Below, piece by piece: positions 11,201-54,951 of a stretch of 64,000 bases of DNA; within the stretch, counting starts at the first letter, position 1, and every line of letters begins with the position of its first letter. Made by a program: the position numbers and the translations under genes. The stretch is from Onthophagus taurus (Eukaryota; Arthropoda; Insecta; Coleoptera; Scarabaeidae), in contig NC_091966.1 of NCBI RefSeq assembly GCF_036711975.1, positions 9,555,501 to 9,619,500 of the forward strand, given 5' to 3'. The notes beneath the pieces were generated by a model that was not told the origin of the DNA, ran no database searches, and was given only the letters and a program-made list of their open reading frames with translations.

Positions 11201-14200
11201 AGCAGACCGGACCCTCTCGTTGTTGTCCCTGCAGATAACGGTCAAGTTACTGTGGTCCTTAACCAGTCCTAATATGTTGACAAGTTCTTGGCATTGCTGA
11301 ATGACTCCATCCAGAGGAAACAAAATAAGTTTTGTAAAGAATTACTAGACAAGGAATACATCTCCAGACAGGTTTACAGGTCTCTGGTGTGTCATAATGG
11401 CACCCAAGTTTTATGGCCTCCCTAAGATCCATTAAGAAGGATCACCTCTTAGACCGATAATTTCTTTTGTTGGCTCTCCTACTTACCGGTTCCTACTCAA
11501 GTTAATTAATTAGATTTATGTGAAAAATATTCCTTTGTGCAACAATTTACACAACTTCTTACTTCCTTATTATAGTTTCGAACTATACAGCCCATCATCA
11601 GCAAAATTTACGAGTATTCTATTTCTTATAAACCTTAATCGATGATAATAAATAATGTCCTTGACATTATCTACAACTAAATATCCAATTTAGTTAAACA
11701 TCAAAACAGCTAAAGTTTAAAACAATTTCTTGTTTAAATTTTTTTACTTCTTATTCAAATGACATTGAAACTAACCATTTTTTTCCTTATAAATAATTTA
11801 TATTTTTCGTCATTTTTAATTCTAACATCCTGTGTAAATAAGTAGATTCAAATCTAAATCTATTGTAACCTTCGTTACTTATCTCAAAAATACTATACAA
11901 TAAGGAGAGAAAGCTACAAATGTAAATTCAGTTTTCATAAAGACTCGTAAATCGTTTTAAAACGTATTCAATATGTTTAGACTTGACCGGTTGGACGTAT
12001 TTATTTGAATCATTATCCATTTGAACGCAAAGCACGTATTTATTAATGTTTAATGTTAAACCATCCATTGTCCCTTTAAAGTAAACGAATAAAGTTGTTA
12101 TAACACAAGTCTTTCTAAATTGTGTCATTAGATCGTATTGTTAGATAAGGTTTAAAATTTATTCCAATTTAAATTCTTCTGTTCTATTTAGCAATTAAAA
12201 CGACAAAAAGTTAGAAAAGCGTATCTAACGTTTTTAGCATTTTAGAGTGGCTTGGTTTGAGCATTATGTAAAATGCTCATTGTGTTCCACATTGTTCGAG
12301 CAGCGGGTAGAAAGTACGACCACAAAATGGCTTTATCTATCTAGGAAATTTATTTTATACGTGTCAATTCGACCAGATTCATATCGTTAAGATACTATAA
12401 TGTTCGTATTGTGCGCTGTTGTGTCAAATTCAAACAACAAACAAAAATGATCCAGATTTTATTCAATGTTATCTAAAGATATAATTATAACGTGAAGTAA
12501 TTAACACGTATGTTTCAAGAAGGAAATTTATCGACAAGACAAAGTTGATGGCATAACTTAATTGTACATTGTTTACTTTGTTACTGTTATTACGTAATTT
12601 GTCCTTATTTTTATTAAAAGTCTTTAATTTCCTGGCTTTATAAGGAATCAAGAAATTGAGTAAAAAAAGTCGTTGAACTTTCGAAAACTTTTTTACCTTC
12701 GAGTTAATATTGGTTTAACTGTTTTTGAGAGTGTTTAATGTATTTAGTGAAATAACGTTAAATGATTCTTAAACACAAAAAAATTATTGATGTGTAAAAA
12801 TAAACCAGATCAATCTGATGAATAAATAAATAACTTGACACAATTGTTAAGCAATAAAGAATATGGTAAATATCAAGGTTAAGTATCGGAATACGTAAGT
12901 GGTCGTGTATAACTGTACACGAATACTCGTGAGTGAGATTATCCAAAGGCCGACATAGATATTGTTTCAGATCCACTCATGAAACGTATCTGCCGAGCTC
13001 ATTTACCACGATTCGCTGACTTTTCAAGCGATGAAAAAGAATTTAAGTCAATTACACAAAAATACAATGGAATTGTTTTTGATCGCGTGGTTTCTCACAT
13101 ATTTTCTCCCGTTAATTTTGCGCCGCACAAAAATAATGTTAAAAAAACCTGTTTATGAGCTGAAGAGGATGACACTAATTAAATCCGTTTCCTGTAAAAA
13201 TGTTGTTTTGTTTACGTGAAGTGTGAAAATTGAGCTCACAAAAACGCAGACTGGCGTCGAAATTATACCTCCTAATTGTTTGAACTATGCTTTCACCACT
13301 TTCTCTATTTGCGAAACGATGCAATACTGAGGAGTGTGTTCGGAATTTATAACTCTGGTAAAGTTGCAGTTTTAAATGACATCAGATTATTTGAAAGTGT
13401 TGAATATCACTTTTTCATGTAATGTGAAGATAAGAAAATGATATACCTAGTATGATGATTAATCTAACACCTTTGATGTATGTATGTATGTAGTTTCATG
13501 TTGGAGTGAATTCCTTCACAGCATTTAGCTCCAGCGGACTCTTTGTACGTCTTCACAATTTATAGTTCATTCAGGGGTCAGAAAACCAACCCAACGTTTT
13601 ACTGAATGTTTATACAGGTGTTCCGGTGACTCGGGGAATAAAATTAACCTCATATACTAGAGCAAAAATGATGACGATTGGTGAAAAAAATTTATTATAA
13701 AAGTCTTCAAATGGCCAAGATATGGGCCATCAAAGTTCAAAAATTTTAACACATTTTTCTAAATATTTGCAATACCGTTTATGGTAGAGCGTTGAAATTT
13801 GGTACAGGGTAAACAAATATCAAGCAAAATCATTGAACCAATTTTGACTTTGATCGGGCGGCGGCAAGCATGCTATACAGGGAGTCCCTAAAATTTGTTT
13901 GCTCGGAACTTTTTTGTTCGATCGTAACCCTACATTTATTTTTGCAGTTTCTAATAGAAAATTTATTTTAGAAGCTTTTATCACTCTTAGATAATATTGA
14001 TAAAAATCACCGTTTTCGTGTTAAATGCAAAAATGGTAGGCTCCCATTTCAATAACACTAAAAAAAAAAGTCTAAGTCTGCCATGACAATTAACAAACGA
14101 ATTCATTGACAGTTGTAAACACGCTTAGTCGTTTAAACAAATACTAAAAACCTTGTAGTGTTCGAAATGGAAAATTACACGTTTGGAGAACAAACCGATA

Positions 14201-17200
14201 TGCTTTTAACATTGGGTGAATGTCTTGGAAATTCCGTAGCAGCCGCTAATCGTTATCGGCAAAAATTCCCGAATCGTAGAACCCCCAAAAGAAAAACGTT
14301 TTCTCGAATTGAAACCTGATTAAGAGAAAATGGATCACTAAAACATATCTTTCTGAACAACTGCAACCCTAGATCTGTTCGAACTCCTCAATTGGAAGAG
14401 TTAATTTTAGAACATGCAGAAGAAAATAGTACCACTAGTACTTCGGACATGGCTAGGCGATTTGGGACGTCAAAAACGACTTTGTGGCGTATTCTTCGAG
14501 AGCAGCAGCTTTACCCATTTCACTGCTGGAAGGTTCAGGAAGTACAGCTTACCGATTATACAATTAGATAGGAATATTCCCAGAAAATGCAACAGAAAAT
14601 ACAAATTGATAATCAGTTTTTAGAAAAAATACTTTTCACCGATGAATCTACTTTTTCCAAAGATGGAATAATTAATTTAAAGAATTTACATAGTTGGGCT
14701 GAAGAAAATCCAAAATTTTTCAAAACTTGGAAATCTCAATGGAGATTTTCTCTCAATGTTTGGGCAGGGATTGTTGGTCCCGTTTTCTTGCCGTCAAGAC
14801 TTGATGGCCCTACATACCATCAACATTTGGAAGGATTAGACGAGTTCTTAGGTGACGTTCCGTTAAATACCAGAAGGGACATGTGGTATTTACATGATGG
14901 TGCCCCTGCGCACAGCACAAATGCAGTGAAGGAATTTCTAGGGAACCGTTTCCCGGGACGGTGGATCGGACGAGGAGCGGAAGCATCGATAACTTGGCCG
15001 GCCCGGTCACCAGACCTTACACCTATGGACTTTTATTTATAGGGGCGAGTTAAATCATTGGTCTACAGCGTTGAAATTAGATCAGTCGATCAGCTCAGGC
15101 TACGAATCGTCGATTCATTCGACCAAATTCGAACGGAGATAAATGTACTGCCTAGAGTACGATTTAATTTAAGGCGACGATATCAGGGATGTATTGATGC
15201 TAACGGAGGTCTTTTTGAACATTTTCTATAGTATTTTTTATTACTTGTCTTGTTATTTTATGTATTTGTTTTACTTTTCCTGTTAGCGTTGTCGTTAAAA
15301 TTAAATTTATTGTTTTGTATTATCTTTTATTAAATCAACTAAAACAAATTAAAAAGGGATTTACCTAATCTACACTTGGAAATGTTACATACATAATATT
15401 TATGACGGCTTAGTTCGATTTTCACTTGTCATGGCCGACTTAGATTTTTTTTTTGTTATTGAAATCGGAACCTAACATTTTTGCATTTAACACGAAAACG
15501 GCGATTTTTATCAATATTATCCAAGAGTAATAAAAGTTTCTAAAATAAATTTTCTATTAGAAACTGTAAAAATAAATGTAGGGTTACGATCGAATAAAAA
15601 AGTTCTGAGCAAACAAATTTTAGGAACATCCTGTATAGCATTGTTCCCGCGGACCGATCGAATTTATAAATTGCCCAATGGTTTTACGTGATATTAGTTT
15701 ATACTGTACCAAATTTCAGCACATTACCATAAATAGTGTTTAAGATATTTAGAAAAATGTATTAAAATTCCATAACTTTGATGGCCTGTATCTTCGAAAT
15801 TTGAGGACTTTTACTAATTTTTTTTACATGAATTGTCATCATTTTCACTCTAATATATGTGGTTAAATTTATTCCCCGAGTCACCGAAACATCCTGTATA
15901 GAACAGAAGGCTATCTTCTTTATGTCCGAAATTTGTACATTCCTCCAAATTTATACTTCTGCAGCTGTGGATGAACTTCCAGCAGCGATAACGTGGCTTA
16001 ACAGGGATCTTGCTAGTGTTCTAGGCTGGTCTAGAGGCCATGGCTTGAGTTTGAATATAGCAAAGACTCAAGCTATTGCTTTCGAATCAAGACCTTTGCT
16101 AACAAAATTGTACTCCATCAATAATACCCGTCTGATACTTGATGGTAACATCATATAATTCTCTCAAACAGTTAAAAACTTGGGGGTGATGATGGATTCT
16201 GCATAGTCCTGCACAGCCCTAGATTCAGTCTGTCTGCAGGAAGGTATATTTATATTGTTCGTCACAACCTCTGTTACTCTTTAATTCTCCCCCATTTGGA
16301 CTTTAAATTGACCTTGTGTTAATGTTATTGAATAATATATATTTTTGTGTTATTATTGTAAATCTTGGTGGCAACAAACTTATTATTATTATCAATTTTT
16401 AATATTACAGAGTTAAAATTATAATCAATGCATAATGTTATATTAAATCATATTGAAAATATAAAATAAAATCCAATACAATTACAACAAATTGAAATGA
16501 TGACACCTCTGAATCAGTTCAACCATAAAAGGTTTACGACTTGATTCACCGTTGAAATCACTACATTGAAATCAATAAGATTGTATAGTTGGGAAAAACT
16601 ATCATTTCAAACCTTAAATTGAAAAGATTATTACCAATAATTTAGCACAAGACTAAAATAAATTGTGATTCGAAGGTTATTTATTGGTGGGTATTTCGTT
16701 TGTATACAGCACTATTCAGGTTTTACTCGCATATACATTGTAAATACATACACTAAGTAGTGATAGAGGTCGAGAGATGCTGGGTGCGGATAAAAAATCA
16801 ACGCTCACTCGCGCAGCCATCGCGAGAATGCTTTTAAGAATTTTAAAGAGTTACGCCCTTTTGGTTACACTCCACAAGTAAAATTAAATCCGACTTAAAA
16901 TAGGATTTACAAGTACTATATACATTCATTGTGTCAGATTTTAATTTGTCTCTTAAAATTACTACTTTTCAAATTAAATATAAAAAGCGAAAAGTAAAGA
17001 ATGATCGGTTATGTAAATGTAGAATGTAATAAATACGATTGCAATTAAAATTAAATATTATCATAAATAAAAGATTATCAGGAGTAACTAGAGCAGAAAC
17101 GATCCCATTTCAATTAATATGGTTTCTTTCCCTACTTTACTTTTAACAATTTTACTCAGATTGTTCAAAGAAAAAAAATCGAAAGGAAAATCAATAACAG

Positions 17201-20200
17201 AACGTTCGATTTGTATTAAAAAAGGTGTGGCTTTAATGTGGTTTTATTGCGTCACTTATAAACGTTTTTAATTTAAAAAATTCTTTAGGATTTAATGCAA
17301 AAGAGAGAGATAAATATTTTCTATCAATAAATTATAACGTAAAGTTCCAAACTTATGTTAGCTGGGTAGTGTATATACTATAGACCTGTATAGTATACAG
17401 GATTTAGTATAGAGTTATTTTAAAATCCTGTATGTATTTAATCTATTCACCAGCTCTTTAATCTGCACATCATCACTTCTAAGTTTGTAAAACCTCTGTA
17501 AATATAAATCTAATATAAATATAAATCATGGTCATAGAAACCAATAAGAGATAGAAAAACTGTAAAAGAGATTGAATTTAAGACTGGAAATATTGAGGAA
17601 GTTGTTTCTACTAAATATTTAAATAAAGGACAGATTACAAGGATAAAAAATGTTGTTATGGTTGCATTCACTCAAGTGTTGTATTCTTCCTCCTCGCTGT
17701 CCAGTCTCTTTGGTGCCTTTCCCGTTTCTGCCCGATCTTTGTCTTTTCTACTATCAATTTTCTCAGTATTCTTCTTCTTTCCTCAGACTCTTTCTTGCCT
17801 TTTAAGTCTCTTTGTAGTCCTCATTGCCTCTGGCAGGTATCTTTATTCTCTTTTAGTCTCTATTAAGCCACATTATTCTATTACCAGCTGTCCGGTTCTG
17901 TTCAATTTCTTTCACTTCATTTTAGATTAATTCTCACATTTTACTTTCATTTTTTTGCATTACAGTCTTTTTCCAGTCTTGTTCTTCTTTGTCCGGTATC
18001 TTTGATTCCCTTTCAGATTGTATTGAGTTCCGTTCTTCCCTTACCAATCTCTTTGCTATCTTTGCCGGTTCTTTCTTCTACTTTTTTCGGGCTAGTTACT
18101 TTCTTGCATTTGCAGTTTTGCTGCGTTTCCCGTTTCTATTCAGTCTCTTTCTTTTACTAATTCCTTTTCCCAGTGTACTTCTGCTCTGTCTAGTTTCATT
18201 CTTACGTTTGCAGTCTCTTTTCAGCTCTCTTCCTCTTTGCCAGGTATCTTTAAAACCCATTTCAGCCTATAATTCTATTTTTCCCTTTCTACTCTCTTTT
18301 TAATATTGTTCTTATCTTACCAGCTTCTGTCTTGTCGTTCCAGTCTCATACTCGTCTTGCTCCTTTCTGTCCAATGTCACTTTTCTGTCTCCACAGTTTC
18401 TGTTCAGTTTCCTTCTTTAATGACGGTTTTTCTTATACTCTGCCAAATCTCTTTCTTTTTTCTCTATTCTCTGTTTTACTAAAAACTTTATTGGAAAATG
18501 GGAGGCAAAAAATAATTATGCTTAACTCCAGTGATTTTGAGTTGTTTTGAAAATCATATACTTGTTTCTTTATATCTTTCTTTATAAATTTATTAAAACA
18601 TTCCAATATTTCAACATCATTAATATATTAGCCGTTTTGACACTGACTTGTTAAACCTTTTAAAGTTTACCTGTAAATAAAGAATATAAAGAACTGCAAG
18701 GTGTATGACATTATGGTTTAGAGAGGTAGAAGGTTCGCGGGTACAAGGTGATCCGGTTAAAGAGCCCTCGCTTATTGGCCGCGGGGTCACGTTTATGCCT
18801 ATAAAGCTGCTTTCTACGCCCACCTTTACTTAAAACATTTTTCGTTTTGTTTACGGCATCAACAATAACAATGCAACGATAAACTTTTTAATACAATCAC
18901 CCATAATTTTTTATAATTATTAAACAAACGCGAATTCTAAAGAATACCCAAATGACGGTTTCGATAGATGGCGTCTAAAATGTCAAGAAGAAACTTTTAC
19001 TTGAACATCGTGATGTAAGCGGTTTCTATTTTATGGTTTTATTGGCAGAGAAAGTGGCAACTTTATCTAAGTAGAAAAACTTTGTTATCATTATAAGGTT
19101 TTTTCTTCAAATTCGAGTTGAACTATTCATGCATTAAATAAACGTTAATGACACATTGAAGTGTTATAAATTAGATCATTACAGAAACACCAAGATTTCT
19201 CGTTTTTAAATCGATCTCCTAACCAGTAGTGTTACTCTGAATGATTTGTTTTGAATCTTAACTTAATTTGTATTGTAAGAGATGAGATAATCTCATCTTG
19301 TGAAAGTGGAACACGGGTGTAAAATAAATCCATCACCGTGAAGAGTTTCGATGGCAAGGTAATAATTGAACTAATTTGGTTTGGTCGCACGTGCGTTATA
19401 CGAATGTGGGCTCGATATTTGCCTTATAATAAATAAACCGTTGGTTGACCTCAAAAACCACCCACGTCGGTGACACCAACAATTGTTTTGTCAAAAACAG
19501 GGCGTAAACCGTCGATTGACGTTCGTTACCGTGACCTCGACACTCAAATTTCACGTACTTATATGGTTTATGACCTTTTGTTTAAAAGTACCAAAGAAAA
19601 TTAACAAAATTTCTTTTTTATTTTTTATAATATACCAAAAAATTAACTTTTTAATTCATTTTAAGCGTGCGAACGTCTGAAAATGCACGGCTAAACTCGA
19701 AAGTTTCTAGTTCTAGGTCTAGTGATAACAATCTAACGCTGAATAATAACTAAAATTAGAACTAATAATGGCATTAGAACTAACACTAGATCTAGAATTA
19801 GAAACATTCGGGTTTAGACACTTAGTCATTTCTACTTCCATTTCTTGGTCTTATTTGAGATGGTGTCTGCTCATACTGTTCTTTAAAGTATTCCATCCAT
19901 TCTTTTTTGGTCTGATATGGTTGGGTTGGACATACTCATTGATGCTTTTCTTTGGTTTCTGTAGCATTTTCCACATCCGTTTCTGTTCACCATATAGATC
20001 ATACTCCATATCCTTTAAAAACTTTTTCCAATCATTTTGTTTGTTATTTGTTTATATCTGTGCAATTCTTCTTCTGATGGTGCGCTTTTGTATTTTAAAA
20101 CCTAGTAATAGTATGACTTAAAATATTTTGTTCGTTATATCCGAAGTAACGATATCCGTTATATCGAGGTTTTATTGTAATCGTTTAATGACACCATTGT

Positions 20201-29200: not shown

Positions 29201-32200
29201 TTATCTGTTTGTGAAGTGGAAGTATTTACAACTGATGGTAAATAAAAATAGTTTAATAAAAATTTATTGTTTTAAAATAATGTATTTCTTTTAGAATTTT
29301 CGATTGATCGGTGCGCTCCAAGATTAGCGCCAGAAGATGCTCAACTCGCCGCGTTCGATCACACGTGTTACGAGTTTGGCGTAGGTCGTGGTGGTTCTTT
29401 TGACGAGGCCAGGTCGTACTGTCGTGGACACGGAGGGGATTTGGTCCACGGAATGACTCAAGCAGCGACCACGTTTTTATACGCGGAACTCGAACGAAGA
29501 AAACCGAGCCTAAAGACGCAACTGGTATGGATCGGAGCACTAAAAGATCCAGGTCTCGTTGCGAAAACATGGAAATGGGTCAATGGTGAGTCTCTTCTTT
29601 ATCGATTTTCTATTGATAGTGTTCGTCTATCTCTTCCTGCGTTATTAGCTTTTAAATAGAATTTGAATACAATATCCGCTTTGTTAACGAATGGAAAGGC
29701 GCGATACGAAGGTTGTGCTTTCGACCGTTTTAACATCGAAATGGCCTCAATCGCGGTCCCCTTTTTGGCGTATTGCTGTAAAGGTGAATGTAGTAGGTTC
29801 ACGAATATATTATGGAAGCAATTTTACTTTCGTTCGTGATGTTGCACCTTTAAACACGATAAGTAATGGGCGTTTTCTTCGAACTCATGCTTGAGTGGGT
29901 ACCGTAATACTTATTAATTATTGTTGTTATAGTTCACGGATTTCTAGATAAATAAATTGGAAAATATTTCATTCATATGTAATAATAAGAGGTTAGAATT
30001 TAAATACAGTAAAACCTCGATATTACGAACCTCGTTAGAACGGAACATACTATTAATATTATCTACATGTATTTAATACATCAGTATATTTAAATATAAA
30101 TGTTAGCTTTGGTTAGCGCTCATAGATAGAATTCAACTCAGGTTATTCCTCAAGTTGCTCTATTTCATAGGTGTTAACCGATACTTGTACCTGTTGCTGT
30201 GGAACAAATATTTGTATGTTGTTCCTTGGAACAGTTACTAAATTTAAAAAATAAAAAATATCAAGTAAAATTGTGCAATTTTGAAATTTGGTGATTTATG
30301 CCATGTTACTAGAAACTGGTGATAGATAAATATGAAATAAATATGGATTATGATTTTTTGATGCATAAGAAATATTTTTTATTCATAACATTTTTCTCCA
30401 TCAGTTTAAGTACTTACGTTATAGTTGATTTTATTAAGATATATCGTCGAATTTTTACATTTTGGGAATTTATGCTGTATAATTAGAAACTGCTGATAGA
30501 TACATATGAAATCATTATGGATTATGATCTATTGATGCATTAGGAACATTTTTTATTCATAACGTCTATCTCCATCAGTTTGAGTACTTACGTTATAGTT
30601 GATTTTATTAAGGTAAATCGTCCAATTTTGGCGGATTTATGTTATATCATTAGTAACTGGTGATAGATAAATATGAAATCATTATGGATTATGATCTATT
30701 AATCCATTAGGAACATTCATAACGTCTTTGTCCATCAGTTTTAGTACTTACGTTATAGTTGATTTTATTAAAAAAAATCGTCGAATTTTTATATTTTGGG
30801 GATTTGTGCTGTATGATTAGAAACTGGTGATAGATACATATGAAATCATTCTGGATTATCATCTATTGATGCATTAGAAACATTTTTTATTCATAACGTG
30901 TTTCTCCACCAGTTTTAGCAGTTAGGTTATAATTGATTTTATCAAGAAAAATTGTTCAATTTTGACATTGCGTGATTTATATCATGTCACTAGAAGCTGG
31001 TGATAGATAAATATGAAATATGTAAGTATGAATTCTTCTTGATGCATAAGGAATATTTTTTATTCATAACATCTTTCTCCATCAGTTTTAATACTTTCGT
31101 TATAGTTGATTTTATTAAGAAAAACCGTCCAATTTTGACATTTTGAGGATTTCTGCTATATCATTAGAAATTGGTGATAGATACATATGGAATCATTCTG
31201 GATTGTAATCTATTGTTGCATTAAGAACAATTTTTATTCATGGCGTCTTTCTCCATCAGTTTTAATACTTACGTTATAGTTGATTTTATTAAGAAAAACC
31301 GTCTAATTTGACATTTTGTGATTTATGTTATATCACTAGCAAATGATGATAGATAAATATCAAATCATTCTGGATTATGATTTGTTGCTGAATTTGGAAC
31401 ATTATTTATTCATAACGTCTATCTCCATTAGTTTTAGTAGTTACATTATAGTTGATTTTATTAAGAAAAATCATCCAATTTTGGGGATTTATGCTATATC
31501 ATTAGAAACTGGTGATAGATAAATATAAAATAACTATGGATTATGATTTCTTGATGCATTAAAAACATTTTTTATGCATAACATCTTTCTCCACCAGTTT
31601 TAGTAGTTAGGTTATAATTGATTTTGTCAAGAAAAATTGTTCAATTTTGACATTGAGTGATTTATATCATGTCACTAGAACCTGGTGATAGATAAATATG
31701 AAATAAGTATGAATTCTGCTTTCTTTATGCATAAGGAATATTTTTTATTCATAACATCTTTCTCCATCAGTTTTAGTACTTTCGTTATAGTTGATTTTAT
31801 TAAGAAAACCGTCCAATTTTGTCATTTTGGGGATTTATGCTATATCATTCGAAACTGGTGATAGATACATATGAAATCATTCTGGATTATAATCTATTGA
31901 TGCATTAGGAATATTTTTTATTCATGACGTCTTTCTCCATCAGTTTTAGTACTTACGTTATAGTTGATTTTATTAAGAAAAATCGTCTAATTTGACATTT
32001 TGTGATTTATGTTATGTATATCACTGAAAACTGGTGATAGATAAATATGAAATCATTCTGGATTATGATTTATTGATGAATTTGGAACATTATTTATTCA
32101 TTACGTCTATCTCCATCAGATTTGGTACTTATGTTATAGTTGATTTTATTAAGAAAAATCGTCCATTTTGGGGATTTATGCTATAACATTAGAAACTGAT

Positions 32201-35200
32201 GATAGATAAATATGAAATAAGTATGGATTATGATTTCTTGATGCATTAGGAACATTTTTTATTCATCACGTCTTTCTCCATCAGTTTTAGTACTTACGTT
32301 ATAGTTGATTTTATTAAGAAAAACCGTCTAATTTGACATTTTGTGATTTATGTTGTATCACTAGAAACTGATGATAGATAAATATGAAATCATTCTGGAT
32401 TATGATTTGTTGATGAATTTGGAACATTATTTATTCATAACGTCTATCTCCATCAGTTTTAGTAGTTACATTATAGTTGATTTTATTAAGAAAAATCATC
32501 CAATTTTGGGGATTTATGCTATATCATTAGAAACTGGTGATAAATAAATATAAAATAACTATGGATTATGATTTCTTGATGCATTAAAAACATTTTTATG
32601 CATAAATAACGTCTTTCTCCACCAGTTTTAGTAGTTAGGTTATAATTGATTTTATGAAGAAAAATTGTTCAATTTTGACATTGTGTAATTTATATCATGT
32701 CACTAGAAGCTGGTGATAGATAAATATGAAATAAGTATGAATTCTGATTTCTTGATGCATAAGGAATATTTTTTATTCATAACATCTTTCTCCATCAGTT
32801 TTAGTACTTTTGTTATAGTTGATTTTATTAAGAAAAACCGTCCAATTTGGTCATTTTAGGGATTTATGCTATATCATTCGAAACTGGTGATAGATACATA
32901 TGAAATCATTCTGGATTATGATCTATTCATGCATTAGGAATATTTTTTATTCATGACGTCTTTTTCCATCAGTTTTAGTACTTACGTTATAGTTGATGTT
33001 ATGATTTTTATTATATCACTAAAAACTGATGATAGATAAATATGAAATCATTCTGGATTATGATTTGTTGATGAATTTAGAACATTATTTATTCATAACG
33101 TCTATCCCCATCAGATTTGGTACATACGTTATAGTTGATTTTATTAAGAAAAATCGTCCATTTTGAGGATTTATGCTATATCATTAGAAACTGGTGATAG
33201 ATAAATATGAAATAAGTATGGATTATGATTTCTTGATGCATTATGAATATTTTTTATTCATAACGTCTTTCTCCATCAGTTTTAGTACTTAGGTTATAAT
33301 TGATTTTATTGAGTAAAATCATCCTATTTTGATATTTTGGGAATTTATGCTATATCGTTAGGAACAGAGGAACAGGTATTTGGAACTATTACTTTGTAGG
33401 ACAAGGAACATATTATATCTAAAAATTAAAAATTTTTCATATAACAGACTTTCCATACATTGAAATTTTACTGTATTAAACAAAATAAAATAATATTAGA
33501 AACTAAGTCTGAACTAGTCTAGTTTATAACCTGGTTACATTTTTTTTAAATTATTTGTATTAATACATGTTTTCACTTTAATGACGAATGAGGTAAAGGC
33601 AATGTGTAAATTAGAAATCACAATTTTCCTGTTTGATAAAAACGCACTTATAGTATGTGCAAGAATATCTAGAGCGTATCGATTTCAGACGTCTGCTTAC
33701 ACACAGACCTCCTTAAGTAATCGCGCATCCTAGTTTTATTTAAATTTAGTCTAATTAAAGCCGTAACACTTACATATCATCAATTAGAACGAAAATTTCA
33801 CACCATTCATGGATTATTAAACATAAACGGCAATAATTTATGACATTATGTTCCTTTAAAAATTGCTCAACCATAAAATGATTTAAGTCTATAACATTTT
33901 CATAACCGTTACTAATTCTTTCATTTCTTTACTTTATTAAAGTTAACATTTTATTTATTATATTTAACGTTAAATTCATCAAATATACTTGGAGTCTTTA
34001 AATTGGGTATGTTTCCACAATAATTTTTTCTCAAAGGAAACTTTATACTCTATTATAGAAGTTTCTCATCAGATTAACAACGATGATGATACTTTTCCGT
34101 TATATTACGTGGTTTTCCTTTTTCTCCCACCATTTCTTTGCACGCGGATTTTTTCCGACCTCAATTCCTCCTTAACAATGAAATTAGGAAAGTCACAACT
34201 CTATATTGAAAATTGAAATATACACGAAGATAAATAAATAAGTAGAAATCATTTATCTCGTCACCTCGGTGTCGTTGCGGTTCGCCTTCAACTCCAGTTT
34301 GTTATTCGATTTACAGGTGACCCTGTATTAAGACCTTCGTGGGGAAAAAATCAACCCAACAACTATAACGGGGAACAGAATTGTGTGGTTTTAGACGGAG
34401 GAAGCAGTTGGTTATGGAACGACGTGGGTTGTAATCTAGATTATTTACATTGGATATGCCAACATAGTAAGTTTATTTATTATCTATTATATGCCTAGAA
34501 TGTTTGAAGGATAGATTGGGAGGTAAGAATTCAAGCGAGACTAATGGAAAGAGGTCAATTCTTGAGACAACAAAGAAAACTTTCTTATATAACTTATTTT
34601 GTTGATTGAATTATATAAGAAAAATTGTATCAATAAAATTAATTCATTAATTAATTTTGTCGATAACATCTTATTATTAAATCTTGAATTGAGTAATGAG
34701 GGTGTGGTTAAGAAAGTTTATAATGCTAATAATTTAATTAAAATTCTTTTAGAACCGCCGTCATGTGGTAGTCCGGATAAATTGCTTAATACCACAATAA
34801 TAGGAACTAATAACAGCATAGGAGCAAACATTAGTTATCAGTGTCCATTGGGGCACATGTTAGAGGGATCCGGAAATAGAACTTGTGGGCGAGATGGATT
34901 TTGGACTGGAATGGCTCCAAGTTGTAAATGTAAATAAAAAATTTATTCAAACTTATTCTTTTTTGACACCTATTTTGCATTTAAGATATTGATTGTGGAT
35001 CACTACCACTATTAGAACACGGCACAGTTGAATTAAAGGATAAAAGAACATCGCACGGCGCGGTAGCAATTTATTCTTGTCATGAAAACTACACTTTATT
35101 TGGAAAGGAAGAAAGAACCTGTGGTGACGGAGGTTTATGGACGGAGTCCGCGGCGAAATGTTTATTCGATTGGTGTCCAAATCCGCCTTCAAGTCAAGGA

Positions 35201-40690: not shown

Positions 40691-40740
40691 ATTTAATGTT
40701 AGTTTTATATTTCAGTAAAAATAGACATTTTAACGCTTAG

Positions 40741-41777
40741 TAACAATTAAAACTAGAACTAACACTAGACCTAGAACTAGAAAGTATCGGGTTTAGCCGT
40801 GCGTCTTCAGACGCATTTCTAGTTCTAGGTCTAGTGTTAGTTCTAGTTTTAGTACAATAAAAATGTACAACATAGTGATATCTAGCAGCATCATGTTTGG
40901 ACTCATTTTAATGGTTTTTTTAATAAAGAATACATCATAAAAGAACACCATGAAGTTGTCCATTTGTCTATTATATGATAACTAACTTCAGATTTAAAAT
41001 GTCAACCTCAATTTTGACATATTTGTAATCTTCATTAAAAATCCTTTAAAATAAGTACAAACATGACATATTTATCTTCAATATTAATGAAGTTATAGTC
41101 AACTTCCGGTTAGAAATGTCAAAGTCAATTTTGACATATTTGTAATTGTCGTGAAAAATCCTTTAAAATGAGCCCAAACATGATACGTTTAATTCCAATA
41201 GTAGTCGAGATATAAGCAACTTTTTGGAAACTAACTTCAAATTTAAAATGTCACGTAACTGGTTCGTTAGAACTTTTTCAGGTTCCACTATTCGTAGAGG
41301 AAGGGTAGAGATTTGAAATTTTGGTAGCATGGGTTACTATTCTATTTTTATATACGGTTATTCATTCACAACTTTCGATCTAAAATATTTTCAAGATGGC
41401 CGCCACTTCCGGTCTACCGGAAGTAGACCATAACTTCGTTATTTTAAATGGAATGCTGTAGTTTTTATTACACCGTTTAATTGTAAGTAGAAAATAGGTT
41501 GACTTTGATAAAAGTTATTGGTACCTAGCGTTTTTCGTTTTCAAGTTATTTGGAGTTTGGGGTATCTTATACAGGTGGTCAAAAATTGAATTACTGTTTC
41601 TCCATATTCAATGGCGAGAAAGTCGAAAATTTTAAATGGAACGCCCCATATTTTTTAGCCTGTCAGAAATGGAATTTAATTCTCTATAAATTATTTATAA
41701 ACATTCCTCTAAGACGCTCGGCTAAACCTAAAACTTTCTAGTTCTAGGTCTAGTGTTAGTTCTAGTTTTAATTGTTA
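40741..41777. mobile_element. Non-autonomous element with CTAGAACTAG-rich inverted ends
   Basis: The left end from 40741 (TAACAATTAAAACTAGAACT) and the right end to 41777 are inverted copies of about 55 bp and share the GGCTAAAC/GTTTAGCC border. The interior has two copies of a ~115-bp unit containing TCAATTTTGACATATTTGTA (near 41010 and 41131) and an inverted ACTTCCGG/CCGGAAGT pair (41405-41424). No ORF resembles a transposase, and a clear target duplication was not found. Confidence 0.6.
40748..40851. repeat. Perfect 36-bp-arm palindrome with nested hairpin
   Basis: 40748-40783 and 40816-40851 are exact reverse complements, built of CTAGAACTA-type words. The 32-bp spacer itself contains TGCGTCT-TC-AGACGCA, a second perfect hairpin with 7-bp arms. 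It lies at the left edge of the repeat element above. Confidence 0.9.
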
Positions 41778-42193
41778 TTCAACCTTATATTCTTGTACAT
41801 TTTAATATTTTAAATATCATTTTTTTGATTTAATCCACTTACCTTGCTTATAATTTCATCCATTTACCCATTTTGAATTAAATACAACCTTTAAATCCAA
41901 TTAATTATGTGTTTTTCATTAAAAAAACTTAAATTCAACGTCAATTTTGAGAAGCAACTACAATGGCAATGTTTGGATCTTAATTACCATGGTAACCGAG
42001 TCAAGTTGGATAACCTTAAAATAATAAAATTTTATTTCGATTTTTTATCAATTCTAACTAAATTTTTATTAATTTTAAAACAATTCGAATTCTTTACGAT
42101 TATCTTATTATTATTATCTTTATATTTTTGTGTATTGCTTCTTAAGTGAAATACACTGTGTAAATAAAAACTTAGAAATGTCAATTCTTCCAA

Positions 42194-46900: not shown

Positions 46901-49900
46901 GTTTCAACTAAAGTCGCCTGCATCAATAAATGAATTAATATATGCCTAACATTGTTTATATTTGGAAGGTACGAAATATAATGAGTCAACCAATGCGTTT
47001 GATTTACATTTTCAGCGGTAATTTCCCCATCTTCATTCGTATTTAAAACCAGCGTTAATCCTTTAATCGCGCGATTTCTACTTGAAGCATGCGGAGATGT
47101 TAAACGTCGCAAAAGATATTCTAAAACTTCGGTGGAATTCGAACCATCAGATCCATGAACGACCGTTCGTAAATGAGCGAGTAATTGACTGTGTTTAGTT
47201 AACTTTTCGGTTGGTGTGTTGGTTAATAAATATTCGCATAAACATTGAACGGGAAGATGAGCTAATGCCCCTTCGGAGTTATGAACCAATTCAGCTAACC
47301 ACGGCATATGGGCCACGCCACCTTGACTCGACATTATATCTAAAAGAAAATCTGGACTTCGAGAACGACAAAGTAAATGGCCCAATCTGTGGGTGTTATT
47401 TAAAGCTTGTAGTTGTTCTAATACTAAAGGTGGTGGTCTGCGAATATCACCTATTAAAATGAATAGAATTAATAATGCGTTTTGATGATTTAAAAAAGAT
47501 TACCTGTTGGATTTAATTCAATTAATTGTGGAAGTAGTAAACTGGTTTGTTCGTTGATTTCTTGTTTTGTACTAGCTGCTGCTAAATGGGTTTCAAATTC
47601 TAAGATCTTTTGCCTCTCTATCGCCAACATTTGTTGTTCTTTTCCTATAAATTCTTCTGTCGCTTCGGTTGAAAGCATTGTTGATGGAGGAAACGTGAAG
47701 TGACTAAAAACAGTGATTTATATAAATATTTTGTTTAAATAAATTGTTATTAAAAATAATTAAAGAAATAAGTTGAGTAATTTCAATTTCCTGCTACAAC
47801 TTTTGAACTAAAAGATTTTTTGTAATATGATCTGTTATAACTTTTAAAAAGCGAAGTTCAACAAATTTTTAAATTTTTTTCGATATCTATGCATCTGAAA
47901 GCAAAAGTGCAAGAGAGCAATATTGTTCAGAATAAAATTTGCAACAAGATTTGTTCTAAAAGTTTTTGTGTAAAATGATCCGTTTCCCAAGTGTTACCCT
48001 TAACAGCTGATAAAACAACGAAATTCATCAAATTTTCATATTTTCTCGATATTTATGCATCTGAGAACAAAATTGCAAGAGAATAATATTGTTAAGAATA
48101 AAATTTGCAACAAGATTTGTTCTAAAAGATTTTTTGTAATATGATCCGTTATAACTTGTAAAAAGCAAAATTCATCATTTCTTCAAATTTTTCTCAATAT
48201 CTATGCATCTGAGAGCAAAAGTGCAAGTGAGCAATATTGTTCAGAATAAAATTTGCAACAAGATTTGTTCTAAAAGTTTTTTTTGTAATGTGATCCGTTT
48301 CCCAAGTGTTACCATTAATAACTTGAAAAACGACGAAATACATCAAATTTTCATGTTTTCGTATTTTTGTCGATATCTATGCATCTGAGAGCAAAAGTGC
48401 AAAAGAGCAATATTGTTAAAAATAAAATTTGCAACAAAATTTGTTCTAAACATTTTTTGTGATATGATCCGTTCTAGAGTGTTACCATTAACAACTTATA
48501 AAACAACAAAATTCATCAAATTTTAATTTTTTCGTATTGTTCTTGATATTTATGCATCTGAGAGCAAAAGTGCAAGAAAGCAATATTGTTAAGAATAATA
48601 TCAGCAACAACTTTTGTTCTAAAAGATTTTTTGTAATATGATTCGTTTCCTAAGTATTACCATTAACAGCTGATAAAACAACGAAACTCATCAAATTTTC
48701 ATATTTTCGTATTTTTGTCGATATCTATGCATCTGAGAGCGAAAGTGCAAGAAAGCAATATTGTTAAGAATAATATTTGCTACAACTATTATTCTAAAAG
48801 TTTTTTTGTAATATGATCAGTTTCCCGAGTGTTACCATTAATACAATGAAATACATCAAACTTTTGTTTTCATATTATTTTTCTCGATATCCATGCATTT
48901 GAGAGCAAAAGTTAAACAGCAATATCATTAAAATCAACAAAGGTAAAGTTTATATTTCTGGTACTATGATAAACAGATGAGATGGTATCTTACTGAGTTC
49001 TACTTTATAGTAATTCTTCAAGTAGGGACACGTATAATCGAACAATATTTAAATATCAAATTAAATAGACACGATTAAGCTAACTTTATTATTCATTATT
49101 AATTAAATAAATTATTAATCTGACATAGAGAAGATTAAACATAGGATACCTTATGAATCCTCACCCTATTAAGCAATCGCGGAAGTGTTAAAGACTGAAG
49201 ATTTTGATTATTGAGCTTAAAATGTCAAATTTCAAGCATAAACACATAAACTATAAAAGATTTAACATTCTTTTCTCAAAATAACTCAGATATTAAAAGT
49301 TATTAATCAAATTTGAATCAAATAACATTTTCAACCTCAAGATACCCCACTGAGATTAAACTGAAAGATTAACAATGCTTAAAAATCTTTTAAAGTTTTG
49401 TCTGGAAAGTTGATATTAAAACGTCAAGTTTTATATAATACCAGGTTCCAATCAATTGATCTATAATAAACACTAAAAATAAATTTTAAGTTTGATTTGA
49501 CATATAACATTCAAAATTAACAAACGTCAAAATCTACGTTTGAATGTTAAATAAAATGTCATTTTCAAGATCAAGTGTGACAAAATATGATTTTGTACTT
49601 TATATTTTATAATTCGCGACGGTAATGAAAGCTATTACAGTACTTAAACGGGTGCTGTAATGAGACTCCTTACAGCATCCGATGCTGTAATGAGATTTTA
49701 GTAACATTTTATGGAACCAGTTCAAGTTGGTGACATTTTATTACTTTCTTTAATCTTCTTCTCTTCGCACCACGCCTTAAATTTAGCGTACTGTTGTTCG
49801 TACCTTTCGTGGAACTTCTCTGGAAGTAGTGTTTTAATAGAACTCTGAGCAATTTCTCTTATTTCGGAAGGTGTACATGAAACATTTTTTTCAGGTGAAT

Positions 49901-52900
49901 ACATTTTGTATTTTGACAATTCAAATTTCTATTTTCGGTGGTAAGTATTACAGTGTTGCCAACTGCTATATTCCTAGACATTCCTAGATTATCAACATTT
50001 ATTTTATTTTTGTTAAAAAAAAAGTATTTCATAAGACTTAAAGCACTCATTCATTAAAAATAATTAAAATTAAAATGCATTAAACTTGCATTGAATTTTT
50101 TAATATACTATTAGGCATCTCTGTGTTCAAATATCGTTTAAGGACGACATGCAAGCACAAAAAATCATTTATAAATGGGGGATAAGTTTACCATAATATA
50201 GTTAGGGTATATATCATCGTTTCACGCAACTCGAGAATTCTTGTTTCCAAGACATCACAAACTACAATCATAAATAATATAGTACTTACTTAGTTATACA
50301 CATTTCCATAAACATCCTTAAAATTCTGTATTTACTCCATGCTAAACTTCCAAACGTACTCGGATTATGAGCAGCAATAATTAACAAAATTAACCAACTT
50401 TTCCAATAAATCGACGAAATCGCCAATTTAGGCGGGGTATATCCAACAGGTAATGTAATATTTTCCGGATAATTATAACAGCATAAATTAAAGAAAAGAT
50501 CGACAATCTCAAGTTTATCCATAACTAAAGGCATCACCGAATCAGTCGTCAAATTTCCGGCTCTCCTCACCAATTGATCACAAATATCAACAATGTCGTT
50601 AGCCGAAACAGGGTGTTCTTTAGAAATACCAATAACTAAAGTTCGAAATAAAGTTTGTTCTAATAATGGTACTTCGCTTATTAATCGGAAAAATAAATTT
50701 CTTTCATTTTCTCCAGGCCATGAGTCAACCTTGCAGTATTGTTCGACTGGTTCTAATAACAATACTTTATGTATAGCGTATTGAAAGTCGCTAACGTGAG
50801 GTCGAAAGGTTCTTAAAGCCCCCTCGTGAAGCCATACGGCAGCTTCTCTTTGAATATTAGAAACTTGTAATTGGAAATGTTGGAAAATGCTCGCATCTTT
50901 TTTACTTTGTGAGGCCGCATCACGAACTTGAGGGCTAATGCACAAAAACATGCACATACAAACCAAATCGACGAGAGATAAAAATATTCTGTCTTTGAAT
51001 TCTGAGTCTCTAATTAAATTCGACATTTCTTTGCGTTCTTTTAAAAGCGAATGAACAACGTTGCATAAATTGAAATCTTGTTTTAATACTCGGTTAATTT
51101 CTTTTAATAAAGTACGAATCGATCGTAAATAATCGTCTTTGTTTAAAAGTAATTCTAAACAAATATCTGTAAAAGCATCTGCCCCACCTTCTGGAGATAC
51201 CTGAAACATCGCTCCAACAACCAGTAAATTATTCGTATTTCTTGTATTTGAGAGTTCGTTATAAACGGTGTATTTTAATAAGGGATATAAATTCTCTGGA
51301 AATGATAACACCATCTCTTTTAAACAATTATTAAAAAACGTTATCATAGGTTTATTTTTAATTCTCAATTTACTTAAATGTGCCACAACTTCCAAATCCC
51401 TTTGAGTGTTTGTCGAGCAATTATAACAAAGATACGCTAAAAGTTCCTGGGCAGGTTTCATCAATTTATGATTGTGGAGCCAATTTTCAATTCTAGACAC
51501 CGCTATTATTCGTATCTCAACCAAACCTGATGCTATACTTAAAAATCGAACGAAATTTTTTGTTATTGCATCCGGTTGTTGTCGCCTAGTCAATTGTTCT
51601 TTTATGGCTTCAAGGCATATTTGTTCAACAATTTCTTGTGCTTGTGTATATCGGGAATATGTATTTATATTCCAACTACTAACAATTGATTTAAACTCAT
51701 TCATACCTAAAACAAAAAGTTTATTTAAAAATAAATATAGTGAAATTTCGATATAACGGAATAATACGGGGAAGGAATTGTTCGTTATAACTAAAAGTTT
51801 GTTATATGACAAATTTTGGTTTAGCTGTGCGTCAGTTTAAAATTGAATCAGTTAACTTAATCAAAAATGTAACGCCCAACGATCCAGGAATATGGAAAAC
51901 AACTAAAAGAATAATCAAAAAAAAAGAAACCAATTCCAACATCAATCCATCAAGAGAACACTCTTAGCACAGATGCTGATAAAGCCGTAGGTTTTTCAAA
52001 CTATCTTGAAAAAATATTCACTCCACAATTTTCAAAAGCGAGTTACACATTCACAAATAAAATTCGACAGTATATAGAACCTAATCTTCCTGTTAATAAA
52101 GCCACTATTGATCATACCACCCCTGAAGAACTTCGAATGATTACCAATAGCCTCCAAAAAAGCTCCTGGTCACGACCTTATCCCGAATTCAGTGATCAAA
52201 AATCTACCCAATCAGACCTTAAATATATTAAGCTCCATTTTACCATCTGCATAAATCTGGGATACTTTCCTAACGCCTGGAAAAAAACTGAAATATTAAT
52301 GTTTAGAAAACCTGGCAAAAATAAACGTGAAATCGAAAATTATAGACCTATTAGTCTGCTTCCTACCATGGATAAATTGTTTGGGTTTAACTTTTTGAAT
52401 CATACCTAATATTCAATACGGGTTTAAAATTGGTCACTCAACAGTAAATCAACTCACAAAAGTGATGGAAATAATAGAGCGAGGATATGAAAATAAACAG
52501 TATACAACAGCTGCTTTTTTACACATAACAGAAGCCTTTGATTCAGTATTGCTATATAGCTTAAAATATAATATCCTTAAAGCTAATATACCTGAATACC
52601 TCAAAGCCCTAATTTTCTCATTTCTGGATGACGTAAAATTTTCTTTACGTCAGAGTTAATGCCTATAAATCCGAATCAAAACCCAACAGAGCTTGAGTTC
52701 CTCAAGGCAGCATCCTCTCACCACTGCTATTTAATATCTGTTTACCACCCAAAATGAAAATCTAGAAAAATCCATTCAAGATCTCAAAAACTCAGTTAGT
52801 GAGATACATAAATAGTTATTGACTTGGTGCTTTCACTTTAATCCAAGTAAATGTGAGGTCTAAATATTTACCCTTAGACAAGTTAAAAATCCTACAACAA

Positions 52901-54951
52901 TAATAATCAAAGATCACCTTTTAAACTGGAATACGAAAGATAGCGCTATCAAATCTTTGGGAGTATATTGGGACCAAAGACTTACATGGAGTACCATATT
53001 AATAAAAAATTAAACGAAACATATACAAGACTGAAAGAACTTTATCCCCATCATCAACAGAAAATCGAAACTGATATTAATCTAATAAGATCTAATATTA
53101 AAAAATTTAAGTGCTACAAAATAAAATTTTAAGAATGTTTGTAGATACCCCATGATTTGTGAGAAACTCAATAATTAATTTCAATTGTTATCAAAGCCAT
53201 GAAGTAACATTTAATGTTGAACTGGTTGACTCTGTTAATAAAAAAAATATATATACAGGTGTTTCTAAATTGATGCGAAAGATTTCAAGGAATGATTTTT
53301 CAGCACAAATTAAGAGGAGTCTTTCATATAACTTTTTGTTCAAACTCCCTTTACCACCGAGTTACAGCTCTCTAAAGTTAGGGGAAAAAATTGTTTTTAT
53401 TTAATAAATCCACTATGGAGGAATTTAGAAATTTGGCAGATAACTGTTGCTAATAAAATGAAAAATAAACCCATATAATACTTTGTATTAGAAGTTTTTA
53501 ATGCGTCTTCATTTTGTTATTTAAAAACTTGATTTAAATAGAGGGATCAATAAGCAACTTCTTTATCTCTTGACATTTTCTCCTAAAATTGTTAGTTTAA
53601 TCACAAAAAAATAAAATAATACACAGGCTCAAGTGAATTAATTCAGAGATTGGTATTATTAGTCAAAAAAATGAGGTTATGTCAAATTGACCTCAACATT
53701 ATTTTATTTTTTGTGATCAAACTAACAATTTGTTAGTTGTTAAATATCAAGAGAAAAGAAAGTTGCAGATTTTCTCCCTTAACTTTACAAGGCTATAACT
53801 TGGAGGAGAAGGGGTTTTGAACAAAAAGTTATATGAAAGACACACCCCTTAATTTTCGATGAAAAATCGCCCCTTGAAATCTTTCGCATCAATTTAGAAA
53901 CATCCTGTATATTTTGTCCGTTATATCGAAGTAATAAAATAATTTCATTTATAAAGTAATAATTAGATAATTACTTTCATCATCATCATTAGAATTAATA
54001 GTTAGAGGACTTGAAGTGTCACGTCCTGCTGGAGCCCATGTTTCAGTAGCTAAAAGTAGTTTTGGTGGCTGTTTAGTATTAAAAGCTGTGCTTATATTAT
54101 CCACAAACGGTTTACAAAATGGGTTATCTATCCAAACTCGATCTCCAACAGCGTCTTCTACATACAGCTATACAAAAATAAAATTAATACATAATTTTTA
54201 AATGAAATAAATAAGTTTTATACCTTAACAAAACTTTCTGGCCAATGCCCAACTGAATTGAAAGCATATAAAAGTATGTTTATGAATAACATTTGATTAT
54301 GTGGATTATTTTTTGTTGGGGCTTTAAGTCCAGCGATAATATCCCTTCTTATAGAGCTTATTAGAGCGGCTACAACATTCTCATTAACGAAAAGTGTTGG
54401 TTTTGAATAAACCAACAGTAATAGATTACTATAAAGTACTTTGCATGGTTTAAATCTTTGTACTTTAATAGAACGAATAGCTCCTAAAATATATGATACC
54501 TAAACAAACAAAAAAAATTACTAAATAACTAAGAACATATAATAAATCATACCGCTTTTTCTGTATTGCCAATATGTACACTATTCATAACCAACTCCAT
54601 GAAATCACATGCTTCACAATCAACAGCCATAGCTTCCCAAGCTTCTGCACTAGATTGTCCTGGATTACTTCTTTCAGTTGGGATCAAAGTGGACATACAA
54701 GGGGCAGGGGTTGTTGTTGGTCGTGTAGGTAATGCCACTTTCATTTTCTTTAATGCGGGCCCAGCTGGTAAAGGAGTTGTATTTTCCCGTTTCCTATCAA
54801 TTTGTCCTTTACCCGAAGTTGAAGGTTTTTGTAAAGAAGGTCCAGTACGTTTTGGGTCATTATCTCTTGATGCGGACTGTTTTGAACCCAATGCAATGAA
54901 CATATCAGGGGGTTGTTGCGTTATTTTCCCCTTTGGCCCCCTTGAAGCCAT
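43996..54951 (-). CDS. IntS1: Integrator complex subunit 1 (1979 aa, 6 exons)
   Basis: Minus-strand exons 54951-54553, 54499-54224, 54167-53975, 51706-50290, 47703-47504 and 47450-43996 sum to 5940 nt and close at TAA 43998-43996. Family landmarks appear in order: an N-terminal low-complexity region with DMFIALGSK, GHWPESFVKLYVEDAVGDRVWID across an intron, PENITLPVGYTPPKLAISS, MEMCITNHFTFPPSTML across intron 4, THLAAASTKQEI, and LGHLLCRSRSPDFLLDI with LPVQCLCEYLL. INTS1 is the large helical scaffold of Integrator, the nuclear complex that cleaves snRNA 3' ends and attenuates paused RNA polymerase II. Length is slightly below Drosophila and human orthologues. It has no paralogue-like breaks. 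It is head-to-head with midnolin and tail-to-tail with TMEM115. Confidence 0.96.
47800..48930 (-). repeat. 7-copy tandem repeat, unit ~170 bp, in INTS1 intron 4
   Basis: The word TATGCATCTG or a close variant recurs at 47888, 48054, 48202, 48378, 48551, 48726 and 48892, that is at 148-176 bp spacing. Units also share GTGCAAGAGAGCAATATTGTT, TTTGCAACAAGATTTGTTCT and ATGATCCGTTTCCCAAGTGT-type blocks. Units 1 and 3 resemble each other most (both with GTTATAACTT and AAAAAGC), hinting at an older dimer. It is unrelated in sequence to the furrowed satellite. Confidence 0.88.
49670..49690. repeat. 21-bp palindrome with flanking TGCTGTAATGAG repeats
   Basis: TTACAGCATC, a single C, then GATGCTGTAA. 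The word TGCTGTAATGAG occurs at 49653 and 49683, and ATTACAG again at 49634. It lies just downstream of the recombinase-like fragment on the minus strand. Confidence 0.6.
49722..49919 (-). pseudogene. Crypton/tyrosine-recombinase-like N-terminal fragment
   Basis: The minus strand encodes IKTLLPEKFHERYEQQYAKF then KAWCEEKKIKE and soon stops. The pattern L-P-E/K-x-x-x-x-Y-x-x-x-Y-x-x-F-x-x-W is the usual start of arthropod Crypton-like or retroelement-derived tyrosine recombinase proteins. No catalytic domain follows. It lies in INTS1 intron 4. This is tentative, as the match is short. Confidence 0.35.
51840..53150 (+). pseudogene. Jockey-type LINE remnant
   Basis: Plus-strand translation has, in order, NDPGIWKTTKRI, YIEPNLPVNKATI, FPNAWKKTEILMFRKPGKN with ENYRPISLLPTMDKLF, QYGFKIGHSTVNQL, TEAFDSVLLYSLKYN and IKSLGVYWDQRLTWS. 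This is the linker, fingers, palm and thumb order of a jockey RT. Several stops and frameshifts exist and the YxDD block is lost. It is antisense to INTS1. Confidence 0.85.
53256..53907. mobile_element. Foldback MITE of Tc1/mariner type, 652 bp
   Basis: The left end is CAGGTGTTTCTAAATTGATG and the right end is the inverse of CAGGATGTTTCTAAATTGAT, with TA on both sides. Inverted similarity extends about 100 bp at the tips. A second inverted pair (AATTGTTAGTTTAATCACAA near 53590 and its inverse near 53720) covers the middle. It has no transposase. Its terminal 9-10 bp resemble those of the element at 13615. Confidence 0.85.

Follow-up and report, generated by a model that had tools for sequence, protein, structure and literature searches.

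Satellite DNA carried by a miniature inverted-repeat transposable element (MITE) is a known principle in Xenopus and Drosophila. The described examples include miDNA4 of Xenopus tropicalis, reportedly described by Scalvenzi and Pollet in 2014, Xstir of Xenopus, said to have been described by Hikosaka and Kawahara in 2004, and Tetris of Drosophila virilis. The locus discussed here, a ~173-bp satellite array in a gene intron of the beetle Onthophagus taurus, is a further case of this known route of satellite spread, in which the array is carried by a nonautonomous hAT-like element nested in a Tigger/pogo-like element. The window is the whole stretch of 64,000 nucleotides that was analysed (NCBI RefSeq assembly GCF_036711975.1, contig NC_091966.1, positions 9,555,501 to 9,619,500); positions are counted from its first letter, and the parts of this locus mapped below are on the plus strand.

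In the portions of two reviews that deal with it (PMC12628747, PMC9659126), miDNA4 is presented as a Tc1/mariner MITE with a satellite in variable unit number, for which the capture of an earlier repeat is proposed and which is said to be the source of arrays lacking element ends. As far as these portions describe it, the likeness to O. taurus is that one element carries the same unit in differing numbers (about 5, 17, 18 and 20) and that end-less arrays occur as well, whereas the carrier here has 8-bp duplications and hAT-type ends, and its window copy lies within a Tigger-like element. Xstir is given three states in the same portions, namely MITE, tandem array and composite (PMC12628747, PMC9659126), and all three have counterparts here; the Xstir repeats may derive from the interior of the MITE itself, whereas the copies without satellite in O. 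taurus hold no trace of the unit. According to the consulted part of PMC4079207, the nonautonomous DNA transposon Tetris, with TIR-220, is the source of ~220-bp internal repeats, of which longer arrays are built as well; it is foldback-like, with the repeats lying in its inverted repeats, unlike the single internal array between short ends found here. As with the central tandem repeats of Helitron/DINE elements, in the account of the review portions, conserved ends enclose a satellite-like array (PMC12628747, PMC9659126). No hAT carrier of a satellite was seen in these portions: the term "hAT" does not occur in the main text of PMC12628747 and occurs twice in PMC9659126, both times in reference titles and neither time on a satellite array. 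A hAT-borne satellite array was not named in the titles and abstract openings returned by a literature search either, which is no proof of absence.

The first-pass annotation had placed the ~173-bp array between matched Tigger/pogo-like ends with TA on both sides (30007-33473) and had proposed that, if other genomic copies carry different unit numbers, this would be a transposable satellite carrier sitting in a gene intron. The matched ends are supported by dispersed copies in the genome (291 Mb in 33 contigs), but the satellite is carried by a second, nested nonautonomous hAT-like element at about 30166-33420, around which the Tigger-like element forms just the outer shell. The termini of the nested element are TAGAGGTGTTAAC... 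and ...TTTATAACATCTCTA, and lining up copies gave the inner ends as TAGAGGTGTTAACC... and ...CCAAAAATACTAGTTTATAACATCTCTA. Its left end in the window (30166-30254) begins with CATAGGTGTTAACC..., two changes from TAGAGGTGTTAACC; when 30165-30275 was used as a query (best 40 of 45 candidates scored), 27 of the 39 matches outside the window started exactly at 30169. The right part (33361-33420) begins with GGAACAGAGGAACAG... and has lost its last ~33 bp: the stretch 33360-33420 is found at the right edge of many arrays, and many matches stop near 33420, while other copies run on to ...TTTATAACATCTCTA.

Searches of the whole genome with the terminus patterns, allowing up to 3 mismatches, returned 38 left and 57 right ends, against none with reversed controls. 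When pattern and similarity searches were combined, at least 51 left and at least 76 right ends were obtained (75 right ends if neighbours within 400 bp are merged). A right end lies on the same strand within 6 kb for 20 of the 51 left ends, enclosing spans of 303-4680 bp, compared with 1 pairing when strands were flipped and a mean of 0.045 when positions were shifted.

Target duplications were assessed in the ten pairs, out of 18 entries, in which both ends were legible. The entries set aside were the window, whose right end is lost; L102/L103, where the right end is shifted (gttgtatc/gttgtacc by eye); L104/L105, with unrecognised ends; L087, L085 and L082, each with one damaged end; and L093 and L002, whose right end was not in the sequence then examined. 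For a length of 8 bp, the pairs agree at 60 of 80 positions, whereas permutation gives a mean of 30.8 and none of 5000 permutations scores as high; the excess is restricted to 8 bp, with none at 4-7 or 9-12 bp. The ends of the hAT superfamily are short terminal inverted repeats (TIRs) with a YARNG start, and most listed copies have TIRs of this type (TAGAGGTGTTA on the left and, as reverse complement, TAGAGATGTTATA on the right), the start of the window copy being mutated to CATAG. The 8-bp duplications and the YARNG-type start point to the hAT superfamily for the inner element. A Helitron reading of the right edge, where CTAA stands near 33419, was dropped, as other copies end in ...AACATCTCTA with 8-bp duplications; to our knowledge, neither a target duplication nor a TIR is expected of Helitrons, unlike the present element, which has both.

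An alternative is that the carrier is the Tigger-like element itself, which would have picked up the satellite and would move it as one package, with the inner ends simply belonging to it; both the window and L002+L111 do read as Tigger left end, satellite and Tigger right end. This reading is very hard to reconcile with the remaining copies, and we consider it highly improbable. Of 29 Tigger loci, each examined with ~1.5 kb to the left and right of its match, 27 lack any satellite match; the two others are L002, which contains the nested element, and L024, in which other sequence separates the Tigger end from a satellite that starts ~1.3 kb away. Furthermore, Tigger flanks are absent at many sites of the inner ends, which are bordered by 8-bp duplications of their own and stand in both orientations at the Tigger site, and in similarity to the Tigger part of the window that of L002 comes near the bottom (79.0% identity, rank 28 of 29). 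With the array bounded by the nested hAT-like ends, the Tigger element was rejected as the carrier. The idea of a transposable satellite carrier thus holds, in that unit numbers vary between copies, and its Tigger version fails, the satellite occurring mostly without Tigger flanks.

The nested hAT-like element entered the Tigger-like sequence at CTCTATTT (30158-30165), the left copy of a presumed 8-bp duplication, whose right copy is lost in the window; the same Tigger position is used in L002, L112 and L097/L098, and the Tigger sequence runs unbroken through it in other copies. This 8-bp site, CTCTATTC, carries four hAT-like copies in both orientations, namely those of the window, L002, L112 and, reversed, L109 (duplication gaatagac/gaatagag), which correspond to 4 of the 51 left ends. 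L112 was brought into the sample because the junction pattern matched there. A fifth landing, at C2:21414900-21416787 (L096/L072; L072:1584-1710), lies at another position near the Tigger left end, and the Tigger element was therefore entered at more than one site. The other flanks examined (16 left and 28 right, with up to 5 substitutions allowed) gave no match to the Tigger reference copies, in a scan in which some flanks belong to one element and which missed L002. Because the Tigger parts of the window and L002 are not close relatives, the two landings look separate, and a composite ancestor shared by them appears unlikely on the basis of these alignments. The hAT-like right end is lost in both, with differing breakpoints. 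A Tigger plus hAT composite moving as one is not supported either, given the distance between the two Tigger parts and the opposite orientation in L109. It is possible, and we put it forward tentatively as less than the probable reading, that the Tigger-like element is a true landing pad, separate insertions at one 8-bp site and in both orientations loading Tigger copies with arrays, so that one MITE family would repeatedly deliver the satellite into another and, via Tigger, into introns genome-wide. Repeated landing at a single site of another MITE in any case lends itself to the study of hAT-like target choice.

The junction between array and element bears on how the carrier was loaded. In the 400 bp before each of 32 right ends, a satellite match was found in 24, and the array ends at the same unit position, ...TATATCACTA followed by GGAACAGAGG, in 20 of these 24; junctions were judged by eye with point changes allowed, and the proportions are not genome-wide because most loci were picked by similarity to the right end of the window. 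The exceptions are L073, L083, L109 and C1:35704264. Seven of the eight right ends without satellite read ...ACGRTT followed by GGAACAGAGG, or nearly so, L084 being different, and at C10:8946771 the inner sequence is kept up to TTGTATAA and then passes into satellite, a transition that would place the acquisition at TTGTATAA[CGGTT]GGAACAGAGG. Because the junction is common and has a satellite-less counterpart, one capture followed by spread with differing unit numbers is suggested; these numbers are about 5 in L068, 17 in L002, 18 in the window and 20 in L109. The unit gave no match of the monomer hidden Markov model (HMM) in the satellite-less copies L064, L082, L085, L087 and L107, and its derivation from the interior of the element was rejected. 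As a separate observation, L107 (C2:22153350-22154790) apparently contains a nested mariner-like fragment, as read by eye.

Very probably, then, a hAT-like element captured a piece of satellite, spread in loaded form with changing unit number, and landed in an older intronic Tigger-like element, which was followed by a deletion. A nonautonomous hAT-like element would have taken up a fragment of the ~173-bp tandem repeat close to its right end, at the point given above, and a hAT transposase acting in trans, the presumed motor, would have spread the loaded element by cut and paste. The array would have grown or shrunk at each site, perhaps through unequal exchange or slippage. One loaded copy would have landed at the preferred 8-bp site within an old intronic Tigger/pogo-like element, and a later deletion would have removed the Tigger middle along with the final ~33 bp of the hAT-like element, leaving only Tigger ends visible from outside.

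Several observations weigh against this history. The per-pair 8-bp duplications are uneven, with 8 of 8 positions in L076 and 5-7 of 8 in eight pairs, and 1 of 8 in L064; the window copy has no right duplication, its own 8-bp duplication being beyond checking with the right end lost. No autonomous partner was found, as none of the 150 hAT dimerisation domains (PF05699) scored, the best of 1076 candidates, falls by eye within the 20 paired spans, and a search with the L085 interior revealed, by eye, no linked transposase. The right junction of L109 deviates. Finally, 364 satellite matches were found in the genome, and those listed make up 40 arrays; for 14 of these a hAT end lies no more than 3 kb away, its side and strand being as expected (shifting the positions gives 0.02 and flipping the strands 0); the 26 arrays without a detected end are an upper bound, because end detection covered the best candidates only. 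In 14 merged regions, several arrays start or stop, by eye, at other unit positions in unrelated sequence.

The satellite thus exists both with and without its hAT-like carrier, and two orders of events may be considered for it. In the first, the satellite was born when a short piece inserted into a single hAT-like element was duplicated there, and the free arrays are released descendants without ends, which is close to the scheme given for miDNA4 in the review portions consulted. The common right junction in 20 of 24 cases agrees with such a birth, as does the retention by some arrays of only a remnant of the element end, for example at C1:35704264. This order is nevertheless rather unlikely, since the free arrays differ in phase and have unrelated flanks, and since L076:17-2637, a satellite-less copy whose 8-bp duplication is perfect, is surrounded by a divergent satellite-related array on the opposite strand, so that tandem DNA of this kin is also present outside the loaded element. 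In the second order, which we somewhat favor, the satellite has an older, independent origin, part of an existing array was picked up by the hAT-like element, and the element-borne arrays are a side branch. The absence of any trace of the unit in the satellite-less copies, the position of L076 and the lack of a detected end in 26 of the 40 listed arrays all point this way, the weight of the last being reduced because ends were sought among the best candidates. Because loaded, unloaded and end-less states coexist in one genome, the question of satellite first or element first can be tested in relatives. The target duplications and the common junction show how satellite DNA can be carried into genes by cut-and-paste movement.

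In the window, the satellite (30255-33360) consists of about 18 units of ~173 bp with a local higher-order pattern of four types. Tandem Repeats Finder reported 16.0 copies of a 173-bp unit over 30259-33002 at 80% matches, further overlapping rows reaching 33332, and an HMM built from the window's own monomers gave 19 forward matches from 30259 to 33371. From 30925 onward, the four monomer types follow a largely recurring order (ABCD ABCD CD AB D), with identities of 87-96% within and 70-86% between types. All 16 full monomers have their nearest relative within the window when compared with 352 monomers of the other examined loci, by margins of 1 to 9 points, while the mean identity hardly differs (85.9% within the window and 85.4% to other loci). 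By these monomer comparisons, the array is an old mixed set of units that was re-amplified locally. A second tandem array of similar period, with about 6 copies of ~175-bp units, occupies 47792-48850; a search with the monomer HMM gave only short weak matches between it and the ~173-bp satellite.

The outer element, whose assignment to Tigger/pogo is presumed from its ends, runs on the left from 30007 to the landing site (30007-30157) and on the right over 33421-33473, its middle part being missing, and is flanked by TA target duplications at 30005-30006 and 33474-33475. The left end reads TA followed by CAGTAAAACCTCGAT from 30005, and the right end ATTGAAATTTTACTG followed by TA to 33475. A repeat search recovered these ends as a 22-nt inverted pair that is 82% complementary; because the same stretch holds 94 inverted pairs, this pair alone is weak evidence. 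Further support comes from a genome search with the left 234 bp (best 40 of 601 candidates scored), in which, besides the window, 38 matches take in all or some of the Tigger part at 72-84% identity, and one other is confined to bases of the inner element. The copies L003, L005, L006 and L008 are unbroken across the landing site, and the right end of L008 agrees with 33423-33452 at every base (100% identity). The inverted ends are of the CAGT... kind, with CAGTAAAACCTCGATATAACGGA-like left ends in the copies and ...TTTTACTG at the right of the window, and of the 26 left ends recognised for this family, 19 follow a TA (one locus counted twice). Elsewhere in the window, additional Tigger-like ends (TTTCGATATAACGGA and TCCGTTATATCGAA) occur at 51726-53951, along with inverted repeats at 53260-53902, and palindromic CTAGAACTAACACTAGACCTAGAACTAG modules, which are also present within Tigger-like copies, lie at 19674-20179 and 40731-41787.

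The host gene encodes lectin, sushi and F5/8C domains, and we take it to be furrowed-like. The halves of its Lectin_C domain fall on the open reading frames (ORFs) 29276-29659 and 34238-34498, on either side of the intron that bears the array, which bears out the intronic location given in the first-pass annotation; the sushi and F5/8C domains are on ORFs near these halves. The intron spans 29586-34316 within the C-type-lectin domain, with its donor (29586) and acceptor (34316) read by eye. At 13619-15891, long inverted arms (369 and 72 nt, ~85% complementary) surround ORFs that resemble, by eye, a mariner-type transposase.

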